From Rubrivirga sp. SAORIC476 (GTDB lineage Bacteria > Bacteroidota > Rhodothermia > Rhodothermales > Rubricoccaceae): a stretch of DNA of 64,000 bases. Below the pieces are notes generated by a model. It did not search any database. It was not told the DNA's origin and saw nothing but the letters and a program-made list of their open reading frames with translations. Of this stretch, positions 58,853 to 63,211 are shown one piece after another (the first letter of the stretch is position 1; each line of letters opens with the position of its first letter). The DNA lies in the NCBI RefSeq assembly GCF_002283555.1, contig NZ_MVOI01000003.1, forward strand, positions 146,536-210,535, read 5' to 3'. The translations under genes and the position numbers were made by a program.

Positions 58853-59407
58853 ATGCCGACCACCGCCTTCACCGATCTCGACCGCGCTGTAGACCGGCTC
58901 CATGCCGTCTGCGACGGATGGACCGACGAGGGTCCGATCGCGCACGTGCTCGGGGCAGACGGGATGCACGTCCTTCGCCTGACGCTCCACGAGTGGGTGG
59001 CGAACCTGGTGCAGCACGCGAGCTTCGCCGCCGAGGCGGAGATCCTGCTGACGATCGACGTGCAGGAGGGCGCCGTCCACTGCATCGTCGAGGACACGTC
59101 CGCGGGGTTCGACTTCGCGGCGCAGATCGAGTCCCAGCGCACCTTGCTGGATGCGCCCGGCCCCTCCGAGCGCGGACGCGGCCTGCTGATGCTCGTCTCC
59201 TGTGCCGAGGACCTGGAGTTCCGCGCCGCCGAACCGGGCGTCCGCCAGCGGCTCGCGTTCTCCATGCGCGACCCTGCCGGTGGAGACCTCGCGGCTCTGT
59301 TCCGCCCGGCCGACCTCGAGACCGACCCCTCCTTTCTCCGTTCCATGGGGGACGGCCTCCTCTCTGACGTTCCAGCGTCGACGGCCACGCCTCCCCCGAA
59401 CCGATGA
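58853..59407 (+). CDS. Anti-sigma regulatory kinase (RsbW/SpoIIAB-like ATPase)
   Basis: A 184-residue protein with a HATPase_c fold. The N box is LRLTLHEWVANLVQHASF near residues 42-60, and ATP-lid features appear in IVEDTSAGFDF and GPSERGRGLLMLVSCAEDLEF. It lacks HisKA and receiver parts, so it acts as a Ser kinase or anti-sigma binder. It overlaps the receiver-phosphatase gene by ATGA, so the module works as RsbU/RsbV/RsbW analogues. Its target sigma factor is not visible. Confidence 0.9.
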   Translation: MPTTAFTDLDRAVDRLHAVCDGWTDEGPIAHVLGADGMHVLRLTLHEWVANLVQHASFAAEAEILLTIDVQEGAVHCIVEDTSAGFDFAAQIESQRTLLDAPGPSERGRGLLMLVSCAEDLEFRAAEPGVRQRLAFSMRDPAGGDLAALFRPADLETDPSFLRSMGDGLLSDVPASTATPPPNR

Positions 59408-60540
59408 GTGCCCGCCCCCACGTCCTCATCGTCGAGGACAACAAGACGCTCCGGCGCCTGCTCGAGTACCGCCTCGGGAAGGTCTACGACGTGTCCGTCG
59501 CGGAGAACGGCGAGCGCGCCCTCGAGGCCGTCGAGGCGCGGACGCCCGACCTCGTGGTGTCGGACATCATGATGCCGGTGATGGACGGCTTCGCCCTGCT
59601 GGCCGCTCTCCGCAGCGACCCGGCGACCCAGGCGGTGCCGTTCATCTTCCTGACCGCAAAGTCTGACGACCTGAGCCGCCAGAAGGGCCTCAAGAAGGGC
59701 GTCGACGACTACCTCACGAAGCCGTTCGACGTCGACCGCCTCATCACGCGGGTCGGGCAGATCGTGCAGCGGAGCCAGATCTACCAGAACAAGCTCAACG
59801 CCAAGATCGGGCGCGACTTCTCGGACCGCCTCCTGCCCAAGGACATGCCGGACGAGCCGGGCTACCGGACCGTCTTCTTCTCCCGTCCCAAGGAGGACGG
59901 CGGCGGCGACCTCTTCGACTGGACGCGCGCGCAGGACGGCTCGTACCTGTTCACCGTCGGCGACATCATGGGCAAGGGGCTCCAGGCCAAGTTCTACGCC
60001 TTCAGCTTCCTGTCGTACATCCGCAGCACGGTCCACGCCATGCTGCGCGAGACGCTCAGCCCGGCCAAGCTGATGAGCCGCGTCAACGAGATGCTGATCA
60101 ACGACGCGGTGCTGGAGGAGACGTTCGCGTCCCTGCTCATCATGCGGTGGGAGCCGGCCACGAACCGCGTCGTCTACGCCAACGCGGGCCACTGCCGCCC
60201 GATCCTGGTCACGCCCGACGGCCCCGGCCTGCTCGAATACTCGGACCTGATCCTGGGCCTCGACCCCAGCACCACCTACGAGGACCGGCAGCTCATCCTG
60301 CCGCCCGACAGCGCCCTGCTCTGCTACACCGACGGCCTCAACGAGCAGCTCACGAAGACGGGCGCCATGTTCGGCGAGGCGGGCGTGGCGATGGGCGCCC
60401 AGGCCGCGCTCACGACGCAGCAGCCGGTCCACACGCTGCTGTCGTGGCTGCTGAGCCGCAGCCAGGACCCCCAGTTCGGCGACGACGTGCTGGTGTTCTG
60501 GCTCCAGCGAATGGGCCTCGGCGGCGACGGACAGGCGTAA
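59404..60540 (+). CDS. Receiver domain-PP2C (SpoIIE-type) phosphatase, RsbU-like
   Basis: A 378-residue fusion. Residues 1-120 form a receiver domain (VLIVEDNKTLRRLL, phospho-Asp in LVVSDIMMPVMDGF, Lys in DDYLTKPFD). A helical linker follows to about residue 160. Residues about 165-370 are a SpoIIE phosphatase: SRPKEDGGGDLFDWTR, VGDIMGKGLQAKFYAF, ANAGHCRPILVTPDG and CYTDGLNEQ. Phosphorylation of the receiver should switch dephosphorylation of the STAS protein. The upstream kinase is not nearby; the FIST-linked kinase at 44-45 kb is a candidate but there is no evidence. Confidence 0.93.
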   Translation: MSARPHVLIVEDNKTLRRLLEYRLGKVYDVSVAENGERALEAVEARTPDLVVSDIMMPVMDGFALLAALRSDPATQAVPFIFLTAKSDDLSRQKGLKKGVDDYLTKPFDVDRLITRVGQIVQRSQIYQNKLNAKIGRDFSDRLLPKDMPDEPGYRTVFFSRPKEDGGGDLFDWTRAQDGSYLFTVGDIMGKGLQAKFYAFSFLSYIRSTVHAMLRETLSPAKLMSRVNEMLINDAVLEETFASLLIMRWEPATNRVVYANAGHCRPILVTPDGPGLLEYSDLILGLDPSTTYEDRQLILPPDSALLCYTDGLNEQLTKTGAMFGEAGVAMGAQAALTTQQPVHTLLSWLLSRSQDPQFGDDVLVFWLQRMGLGGDGQA

Positions 60541-60579
60541 GCCCGCAGGCGACAGAATGCCCCCTGACCGGGACTCTCA

Positions 60580-60601
60580 CCCGCCTCGGCACCGAGGCGG
60601 G
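60580..60601. repeat. Palindromic repeat, copy 5
   Basis: Arms CCCGCCTCGG and CCGAGGCGGG match perfectly around CA. It lies 40 bases after the RsbU-like gene and before the VOC lipoprotein. Its right arm and flank, 60589-60609, recur at 24485-24505. Confidence 0.7.
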
Positions 60602-60637
60602 CGAGGTGGTAGACTCGGGGACGCTCCTCCCGTTTTC

Positions 60638-61096
60638 GTGCTCCGCTTCCTTCCGCTCGCCGCCCTTCTGACCCTCGGCGCTTGCCAGTCGACAGCCCCC
60701 ATGCAGGCGGCTCCAGCCCCACCGGTTGGGCTGGACCACGCCGCGCTGCACGTCGCCGACCTCGGCGAGAGCGTGGCCTTCTACGAGCAGGTGTTCGGAC
60801 TGGAGGAGATCCCCGCGCCGGGCGACCCGACGGTGATCCGCTGGCTCGGCCTCGGGCCTGCACAGCTCCACCTGATCCACTACGATGGGGATGTGCCGCC
60901 GACCACGAAGGCCGTTCACTTCGCCCTCCGCGTGGCCGACTTCGACGCGCTGGTGGCGCGCGTCGCCGACCTCGGCGTGCCGTACTCCGACTGGCCGGGG
61001 GCTCCGGCGACGGTCAGCGTCCGCGGCGACGGCATCCGCCAGATCTACGTCCAGGACCCCGACGGGTACTGGATCGAGGTCAACAACGTCCGGTAG
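60638..61096 (+). CDS. VOC-fold (glyoxalase-like) lipoprotein
   Basis: A 152-residue protein that starts at a GTG at 60638 (MLRFLPLAALLTLGACQ) and carries a lipobox LGAC at about residue 16. The rest is a single VOC module: LDHAALHVADLGESVAFYEQVFGLEE, PTVIRWLGLGPAQLHLI, HFALRVADFDALVARV and VQDPDGYWIEVNN. His, Glu and other metal-ligand positions of glyoxalase-type proteins are present. VOC proteins are normally cytosolic, so a membrane-anchored form is unusual. An upstream ATG at 60557 is rejected because it runs across the palindromic repeat and has an unlikely leader. Confidence 0.82.
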   Translation: MLRFLPLAALLTLGACQSTAPMQAAPAPPVGLDHAALHVADLGESVAFYEQVFGLEEIPAPGDPTVIRWLGLGPAQLHLIHYDGDVPPTTKAVHFALRVADFDALVARVADLGVPYSDWPGAPATVSVRGDGIRQIYVQDPDGYWIEVNNVR

Positions 61097-61100
61097 GCCC

Positions 61101-61955
61101 ATGCGCAGCCTCCTTCTGCTCGCCGGGCTGGCACTCAGCGCGTGCGCCTCCGCCCCGCCGCCCGCCCCGACCGTGCCGGTCCGCGTGATGAGCTTCAACA
61201 TCCGGGTCGACGTGGCGTCGGACGGCGAGAACGCATGGCCGAACCGCGTCGACGCTGTGGCCGCGACGATCCGAGAGGCGGACGTGGTGGGCGTTCAGGA
61301 GGCGACCCCCGCCATGCTGGCGACGCTCGACGGCGAGCTCCCCGCCTACACCCGCTACGGCGTCGGCCGCGACGCCGACGGCGGAGGCGAGCAGGGCGCG
61401 ATCCTCTACCGCACCGACCGGTTCGACCGCATCGACGGCGGCACCTTCTGGCTCTCGCCGACGCCAGGCGTCGCGGGCAGCCAGGGCTGGGACGCCGCCC
61501 TTCCCCGCATCGCGACGTGGGCTCGCCTCCGCGACCGGCAAAGCGGGCGCTCGTTCGTGATCGTGAACACGCACTTCGACCACATGGGCGAGACGGCTCG
61601 GCGCGAGAGCGCACGGCTGGTCGTCGCCCGCGCGCAGGGACTCGCCGACGGTGCCCCGCTGGCGGTCATCGGCGACCTGAACGCCGACGACGACTCCGAG
61701 GTGGCCCGCACGTTCGGCGCTGCGCTCCGCGATACGCGTCTCGTGGCCGAGACTCCCGCGGCGGGCGGTCACGCAACCTGGAACGCCTTCGGGACCGCCA
61801 CCGACGACCGGCGCATCGACTACGTGTTCGTGTCCGAGGGCGTCCGCGTGCTGGAGGCCGCGACGCTGGACCGCACCATCGGCGACGTGCTCGGGACGGA
61901 GAACCCGCGCCTACCCTCCGACCACCACGCCGTCACGGCGACGCTCGCGCTCTAG
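61101..61955 (+). CDS. Endonuclease/exonuclease/phosphatase-family lipoprotein
   Basis: A 284-residue lipoprotein (lipobox ALSAC at about 14) of the EEP fold. Motifs: VMSFNIRVDVASDGENAWPNR, VGVQEATPAMLATL (Glu metal ligand), VNTHFDHMGETARRES, IGDLNADDDSEVA (Asp-Asn), RRIDYVFV and SDHHAVTATL (catalytic Asp-His). Exported EEP proteins of this branch are phosphodiesterases or sphingomyelinase-like enzymes; the substrate is unknown. It follows the VOC gene by four bases. Confidence 0.9.
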   Translation: MRSLLLLAGLALSACASAPPPAPTVPVRVMSFNIRVDVASDGENAWPNRVDAVAATIREADVVGVQEATPAMLATLDGELPAYTRYGVGRDADGGGEQGAILYRTDRFDRIDGGTFWLSPTPGVAGSQGWDAALPRIATWARLRDRQSGRSFVIVNTHFDHMGETARRESARLVVARAQGLADGAPLAVIGDLNADDDSEVARTFGAALRDTRLVAETPAAGGHATWNAFGTATDDRRIDYVFVSEGVRVLEAATLDRTIGDVLGTENPRLPSDHHAVTATLAL

Positions 61956-62053: not shown

Positions 62054-62833
62054 ATGCTCCGCCTCGGTCTTCTCCTCGCCCTGCTGGTCACCGGCTGCGC
62101 GTCGGCGCCCGACGCAGTCTCCCCGAGCCCGCCGACGACGTACCCGACCGGGGCCGATGTCGAGCCAGGCCAGATCAAGTTGGTCCCGCTCCGCCCCGGA
62201 GTCTGGGCACACGTCTCGACGTTTCGCTTCGAAGACGGCACCGTCTACCCTTCCAACGGCCTGGTGGTGCGGGACGGCGACAGCGTGTACCTCGTCGACA
62301 CGGCATGGGGCGAGGAGGCGACGGTCGCGCTCCTGGCGGCCATCGACGCCGAGATCGGGCTGCCGGTCCGAGGCGTGGTCTCGACGCACTTCCATGACGA
62401 CCGGGTCGAAGGCGCCGACGTGTTCCGCTCACGCGGCATCCCGGTCTTTGCGTCGTCGATGACCCGTCGGCTCGCCGCCGAGGAGGGCAACGCGGTCCCC
62501 TCGGATTCGCTGGCCGGGCTGACCGTCCCCGGAGCGAATGTCCGGCTGGGCCCGCTGGATGTGTTCTACGCGGGTCCGGGCCACACGCGGGACAACCTCG
62601 TCGTGTACGTCCCCGAGGCGGGCATCCTGGCGGGAGGGTGTGCCGTCCACGAGGCCAGCCGGACGCATGCCGGCAACGTGGCGGACGCCGACCTCGATGC
62701 CTGGCCGGTGTCGCTGCGCCGGGTCCGCGACCGCTACCCCGAGGCGGACCTCGTGGTGCCGGGCCACGGGCCGCCCGGAGGTCGCGAGTTGCTGGATCAC
62801 TCGATCGAGGTGGTCGAGGCCGCGGGCGACTAG
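62054..62833 (+). CDS. Subclass B1 metallo-beta-lactamase, VIM-like lipoprotein
   Basis: A 259-residue exported enzyme with a lipobox VTGC at residue 15. All six zinc ligands of B1 enzymes are present: His112, His114 and Asp116 in STHFHDDRVEG, His177 in GPGHTRDNLVVY, Cys196 in LAGGCAVHEAS and His238 in VVPGHGPPGG. Stretches such as YPSNGLVVRDGD, VDTAWG and RTHAGNVADADLDAWP are close to VIM enzymes as I recall them. It should open the beta-lactam ring of penicillins and carbapenems if expressed. Codon use matches its neighbours; no integron, cassette site or transposon flanks it, so it looks resident. The third of three consecutive lipoprotein enzymes. Confidence 0.92.
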   Translation: MLRLGLLLALLVTGCASAPDAVSPSPPTTYPTGADVEPGQIKLVPLRPGVWAHVSTFRFEDGTVYPSNGLVVRDGDSVYLVDTAWGEEATVALLAAIDAEIGLPVRGVVSTHFHDDRVEGADVFRSRGIPVFASSMTRRLAAEEGNAVPSDSLAGLTVPGANVRLGPLDVFYAGPGHTRDNLVVYVPEAGILAGGCAVHEASRTHAGNVADADLDAWPVSLRRVRDRYPEADLVVPGHGPPGGRELLDHSIEVVEAAGD

Positions 62834-62893: not shown

Positions 62894-63211
62894 ATGACCC
62901 GCGTCTTCAGTCATCCCGACCCCTCGATCACGCATCTGGTCCTGAACCGCCTTCAGCAAGAAGGCATCGACGGGGTGATCCGCGGGCTGGCGGTCGGGCG
63001 CGGCATGGGCGAGATTCCGCCGATCGCGGCGTGGTCGGAGGTCTGGGTCGCAGGCGACCCCACAGCCGAGGCGGTCCAGACCGTCATCTCGGAGGTGACC
63101 TCCGCCTCTCCCCCGGACGCGGACTGGACGTGCGCCTGTGGCGAGACCATGGAGGGCCAGTTCGCGACCTGCTGGGCCTGCGGCGCGGAGGCCCCGATGG
63201 TTCCCTCCTAG
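62894..63211 (+). CDS. DUF2007-like protein with C-terminal zinc ribbon
   Basis: A 105-residue cytosolic protein. The N-terminal part (VFSHPDPSITHLVLNRLQQEGIDGVI, AWSEVWVAGD) matches DUF2007, a small ferredoxin-like fold similar to PII-type proteins. The end has C-x-C...C-x2-C (DWTCACGETMEGQ and ATCWACGAEA), a zinc-ribbon-like motif that DUF2007 proteins often carry. Function unknown. The ATG at 62894 is used; an earlier start (62849) would be out of family. Its stop and the next GTG are two bases apart. Confidence 0.82.
   Translation: MTRVFSHPDPSITHLVLNRLQQEGIDGVIRGLAVGRGMGEIPPIAAWSEVWVAGDPTAEAVQTVISEVTSASPPDADWTCACGETMEGQFATCWACGAEAPMVPS

Follow-up and report, generated by a model that had tools for sequence, protein, structure and literature searches.

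The window (the whole stretch of Rubrivirga sp. SAORIC476 DNA that was analysed, 64,000 nt) carries an open and intact reading frame for a metallo-beta-lactamase (MBL), which runs from an ATG start to a TAG stop and encodes 259 aa (Table 1). It is preceded by the genes for a response regulator with a SpoIIE phosphatase, a glyoxalase-fold lipoprotein and an endonuclease/exonuclease/phosphatase-family lipoprotein, in that order, and followed by those for a DUF2007-like protein and a methyltransferase. Beyond the methyltransferase lie what we take to be an acetyltransferase-like gene and then a long gene presumably encoding a glutaminyl-tRNA synthetase. The two lipoprotein genes and the MBL gene are referred to below as the trio.

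Table 1. Features of the MBL locus, with positions counted from the first nucleotide of the window.
Feature	Positions	Strand	Basis
Response regulator with SpoIIE phosphatase; left flank, conserved in the genus	59404..60540	+	Pfam search, synteny
Glyoxalase-fold lipoprotein; first gene of the trio, true start perhaps further in	60557..61096	+	Pfam PF00903; synteny
Endonuclease/exonuclease/phosphatase-family lipoprotein; second gene of the trio	61101..61955	+	Pfam PF03372; synteny
Subclass B1 metallo-beta-lactamase gene, VIM-like, predicted lipoprotein, 259 aa	62054..62833	+	Family profile, PDB sequence matches, tree, predicted fold
Signal peptide MLRLGLLLALLVTGC with lipobox VTGC, predicted lipid anchor Cys15	62054..62098	+	Sequence; lipobox pattern and comparison
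HFHDD zinc-binding motif: H112, H114, D116 (BBL H116, H118, D120)	62387..62401	+	Alignments
Zinc ligand H177 (BBL H196)	62582..62584	+	Alignments
Zinc ligand C196 (BBL C221)	62639..62641	+	Alignments
Zinc ligand H238 (BBL H263)	62765..62767	+	Alignments
DUF2007-like protein (under the Pfam cutoff); right flank, conserved in the genus	62894..63211	+	Pfam search, synteny

The MBL protein begins with a lipoprotein signal (MLRLGLLLALLVTGC), including the lipobox, and continues into a complete metallo-beta-lactamase domain. All six B1 zinc ligands reported in the initial annotation are present, and none of them varies in three alignments, with 7, 11 and 21 relatives; the 'spacing of 259 residues' given along with them is the length of the protein, not a distance between ligands. 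The four phrases that had been read as a VIM signature fared unevenly. That is, HFHDDRV, YPSNGL and GNVADADL are identical to the corresponding stretches of VIM-1, whereas the VVPGHG of the Rubrivirga protein aligns with VIPGHG in VIM. Furthermore, HFHDDRV occurs in every member of the 13-member VIM-like clade described below and is therefore not a marker of VIM itself.

Family models place the protein in subclass B1 but not in the VIM family proper: it scores 238 bits with the NCBIfam subclass B1 model NF033088 (cutoff 200) and 309.8 bits with the blaVIM model NF012100 (cutoff 500). Behind the VIM and general B1 models, the highest-scoring NCBIfam families were PYX, COR and MYX; their scores of 177-209 bits are far under the respective cutoffs (450-520 bits). 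The top PDB sequence matches are VIM enzymes, at E-values down to 5e-88 and far above chance. The description of the gene as a chromosomal VIM-like B1 enzyme was borne out. The AlphaFold model of the protein has a mean pLDDT of 94, and practically every one of the top 50 structures in the fold comparison is a VIM enzyme, in most cases with an rmsd of 0.7-1.0 Å; the TM scores of 0.94-0.99 against VIM structures (by target length) assign it the MBL fold, as a prediction. The residues aligned with Tyr67, Trp87, Asp119, Arg121, His224, Arg228 and Asn233 of the VIM pocket (positions in BBL numbering) are all retained in comparison with VIM-1 and VIM-2, and the His224/Arg228 pair is what we take to be a VIM-4 feature.

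Among plasmid-borne enzymes it matched VIM-4, VIM-1 and VIM-2, with 58.1%, 57.7% and 57.3% identity, respectively, over 227 aa, against just 36% for NDM-5. The Rubrivirga MBL resembles the VIM family (VIM-1, VIM-2, VIM-4, VIM-7) in its B1 ligands, predicted fold, pocket residues and three motifs, but differs from it by the level of identity, the lipobox, one added residue preceding the YPSNG strand, a chromosomal location where no cassette was detected, a score below the blaVIM cutoff and a separate branch in the tree. The NDM family is likewise of subclass B1 and made up of predicted lipoproteins; however, it is only about 35% identical and falls outside the VIM-like clade.

A scan for relatives in the genomes of 84,980 species gave 77 loci. 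VIM-like genes were found in Rubrivirga, Lysobacter sp. GX 14042 (L017), Parahaliea aestuarii (L024), Bowmanella denitrificans (L022), a Methylophaga metagenome-assembled genome (MAG; L023), an unclassified proteobacterium and the Rhodothermota MAGs OFTM130 (L019) and UWMA-0293 (L020). The records of the last two say Bacteroidota only, and their contigs match genomes G045 and G007 from the window's order and family. Pseudomonas defluvii carries VIM-2, and Paenalcaligenes suwonensis a VIM-1 variant. The latter gene (strain 191B, L028:5974-6807, on a 327-kb contig) is 98% identical to VIM-1 and has an unusual 'GGCAVLALSRT' stretch past the zinc cysteine. In Bowmanella (L022:1880-5365) and Parahaliea (L024:9753-12605), a gene for an amidohydrolase with a PD40 propeller lies a few kilobases from the MBL gene, through either shared context or chance. 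AMM-1 of Alteromonas mangrovi was considered as a near relative and rejected, as the paper describing it groups AMM-1 with IMP-1 and VMB-1 (PMC12238668).

In a tree of 34 B1 enzymes, 13 rows including the Rubrivirga MBL form a VIM-like clade with support of 100/98 (99/98 in a smaller tree that agrees with it). Inside this clade the Rubrivirga MBL and those of two genus mates make up one branch (100/98), and VIM-1, VIM-2, the Paenalcaligenes variant and the Parahaliea and Bowmanella enzymes another (100/99). An exclusive clade of Rubrivirga and VIM was rejected by the AU test twice (p 0.0055, and p 0.00027 with the smaller tree), as was a grouping of VIM with the two Rhodothermota MAG genes to the exclusion of Parahaliea and Bowmanella (p 0.0016); the p values of the AU tests are somewhat optimistic because the groups were chosen with the first tree already known. 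The Parahaliea, Bowmanella, Lysobacter, Methylophaga, OFTM130 and UWMA-0293 genes, all within the 13-row clade, are 52-62% identical to the Rubrivirga MBL. Identity to VIM-1 is 64-71% for chromosomal genes elsewhere, compared with 57-58% for Rubrivirga: 71% for UWMA-0293 (the best, although a partial gene at a contig end), 69% for Parahaliea and 65% for Bowmanella. The two Rhodothermota MAG genes are also nearer to VIM than the Rubrivirga MBL is. Some of the environmental relatives are also predicted lipoproteins, the lipobox being common to the Rubrivirga, Lysobacter, OFTM130 and DTSAM18 members and absent in VIM, Methylophaga, Parahaliea and Bowmanella, of which the last two group with VIM. 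A search for closer relatives of VIM across the order to which Parahaliea belongs (391 genomes) recovered nothing but Parahaliea and a single match at 48%, and no relative of the MBL was found in the viral contigs searched. Judged by sequence identity, none of the chromosomal genes found is near enough to VIM to be its direct source.

We also examined whether the MBL gene is an integron cassette. A covariance model built on ten attC copies from a genus mate had no match at E < 0.2 in the whole 64-kb window; as a control, it gave a match immediately downstream of VIM-2, at the place of the cassette attC (25 bits, E 0.0004), but it missed the attC of VIM-1 and is therefore not fully sensitive. 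A scan for the attC-core pattern likewise found nothing at the MBL, though this is a weak test, a stricter version of which missed the VIM-1 and VIM-2 controls. No attC was detected by the same covariance model at the Parahaliea, Bowmanella and Lysobacter loci. The cassette arrangement of the VIM family was not seen for the MBL with this model, which finds the attC of VIM-2 but misses that of VIM-1. The genome itself is a different matter. It encodes an IntI integrase scoring 429 bits against a family cutoff of 265, which none of 14 control genomes passes, on a contig other than that of the MBL, and it has at least 42 attC sites, many of them in a single run on contig C11. Of the attC sites listed, those on the MBL's own contig are near 267 and 858 kb, and the MBL itself is at 209 kb. 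The claim of a setting with no integron or attC site thus holds for the locus, where none was detected, but not for the genome, and the MBL is not a detected cassette of its host's chromosomal integron.

Genomes of the Rubrivirga group have large chromosomal integrons; they encode an IntI over the cutoff and contain attC arrays whose sites are about 150 nt long. There are 38 attC sites in the genus mate G003 and 10-27 in other members of the family; places include G003:C1 at 213-224 kb and 3003-3024 kb (part in L131), G000:C4:260-1219 and G000:C11:1-14646, among others. A literature search on integrons in Rhodothermota found no paper.

The initial annotation had proposed that the gene may belong to the environmental lineage from which VIM-type enzymes came, with an alignment and tree as the check. 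In the wide sense this stands, since the gene falls inside a clade that contains VIM. In the close sense, that is, with the Rubrivirga MBL itself on the line of descent that gave rise to the mobilised VIM genes, it has next to no chance of being right, given the genes sampled. The 57-58% identity over 227 aa, the same fold, the shared motifs, the VIM-4-like His224/Arg228 pair and a host that owns an integron system would all fit such a descent, but the gene lies outside the branch in which the Parahaliea and Bowmanella genes group with VIM, the AU tests reject the exclusive pairing, other genes are closer to VIM-1, and the lipobox and the added residue are not found in VIM. A broader scenario, which is highly speculative and to which we give very little credence, would have the VIM-like clade be an environmental, largely marine lineage that moved between Rhodothermota and Gammaproteobacteria, with VIM descending from a lipid-anchored form whose anchor was later lost; a Rubricoccaceae-type genome could then have first made a VIM-like cassette, because carriers of the gene there also have large chromosomal integrons.

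Conservation of the locus within the genus is partial. The trio and both flanks are kept in G003, and the trio and its right-hand neighbours in G001 (Rubrivirga sp. SW42617_bin_3), where the contig stops at that point; the methyltransferase is located elsewhere in both. In G002, by contrast, the SpoIIE gene directly adjoins the DUF2007-like gene, which is followed by the acetyltransferase, and the whole trio is absent from the site, a pattern that fits both a gain after the split of G002 and a loss in G002. Matches to the MBL were found in 11 of 60 relatives from the order at E 1e-10 and in 6 of 395 genomes of the phylum at E 1e-40. Because of this rarity and the absence of the trio in G002, the MBL may not be old in the lineage. 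The gene nevertheless has a host-like composition, as had been claimed from its codon use: its GC content is 0.718 (window, 0.719) and its codon score ranks 13 of 40, VIM-1 being far lower on the same codon table. Within the genus, dN/dS is 0.19-0.29, which indicates purifying selection.

At the level of the clade, the tree mixes rows from Rhodothermota with rows from Pseudomonadota and implies at least four changes of phylum, and a single clade of the three Rubrivirga genes with those of OFTM130 and UWMA-0293 was rejected by the AU test (p 0.0098). The two MAG rows come from short contigs (6 and 44 kb), for which mis-binning is possible; the Rubrivirga MBL, the G003 copy and L006 are on large contigs of 2.2, 4.7 and 4.0 Mb. 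This suggests, from the sequences compared, repeated movement of VIM-like genes between phyla. The trio could have been gained by horizontal transfer in an ancestor of part of the genus and have acquired a host-like composition later, a history to which we give about even chances. It would account for the same flanks without the trio in G002, for the patchy spread in the order and phylum, and for the interleaving of phyla; yet loss in G002 gives the same local pattern, the composition is that of the host, and the borders of the trio lack clear repeats, the only matches there being short and imperfect, as expected in high-GC coding sequence. Such a transfer would explain the arrival of the gene and does not conflict with its product being a B1 enzyme.

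As to what that product does, an intact gene, the zinc ligands, the predicted fold, the clade, synteny and purifying selection were all computed directly, and we are confident in reading the MBL as a functional resident B1 enzyme that hydrolyses periplasmic beta-lactams and that represents a separate early branch of the VIM-like clade rather than the source of VIM. The protein would be exported and lipidated by way of its lipoprotein signal, and its lipid would probably anchor it on the periplasmic side of the outer membrane. Two zinc ions would be bound, one in a His3 site and one in an Asp-Cys-His site, for the hydrolysis of beta-lactams that reach the periplasm, presumably with a protective role for the host. 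MBL-fold enzymes are often promiscuous. This, together with a host without known antibiotic selection and neighbours that are neither cell-wall nor resistance genes, could mean that the main job of the enzyme is another hydrolysis, e.g. of a lactam or ester from the cell wall or the environment, and that it is VIM-like in form only. We regard this as unlikely, as the B1 ligands and VIM pocket residues are all retained under purifying selection, and most predicted B1 genes tested in E. coli were active (PMC5637372). Activity of the MBL on beta-lactams is a prediction from sequence and model, and carbapenems would very probably be among the substrates.

VIM is a major hospital carbapenemase. Its source was described as unknown in 2018 (PMC5895761), and a review of the origins of mobile resistance genes lists confirmed sources only in Proteobacteria and no gene cassette with a confirmed origin (PMC7782503). 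In the main survey of B1 enzymes, the identified hosts of chromosomal genes in VIM-containing groups were all Proteobacteria (PMC5637372). Our literature search found no description of a metallo-beta-lactamase in Rubrivirga, although one may exist. The Rubrivirga MBL is an environmental B1 enzyme in the wide clade of VIM, and is neither a VIM nor the source of VIM. Together with its relatives, it extends the host range of VIM-like enzymes to Rhodothermota, contrary to the published Proteobacteria-only view, and it points away from Rubrivirga, towards the relatives of Parahaliea and Bowmanella, in the search for the source of VIM.
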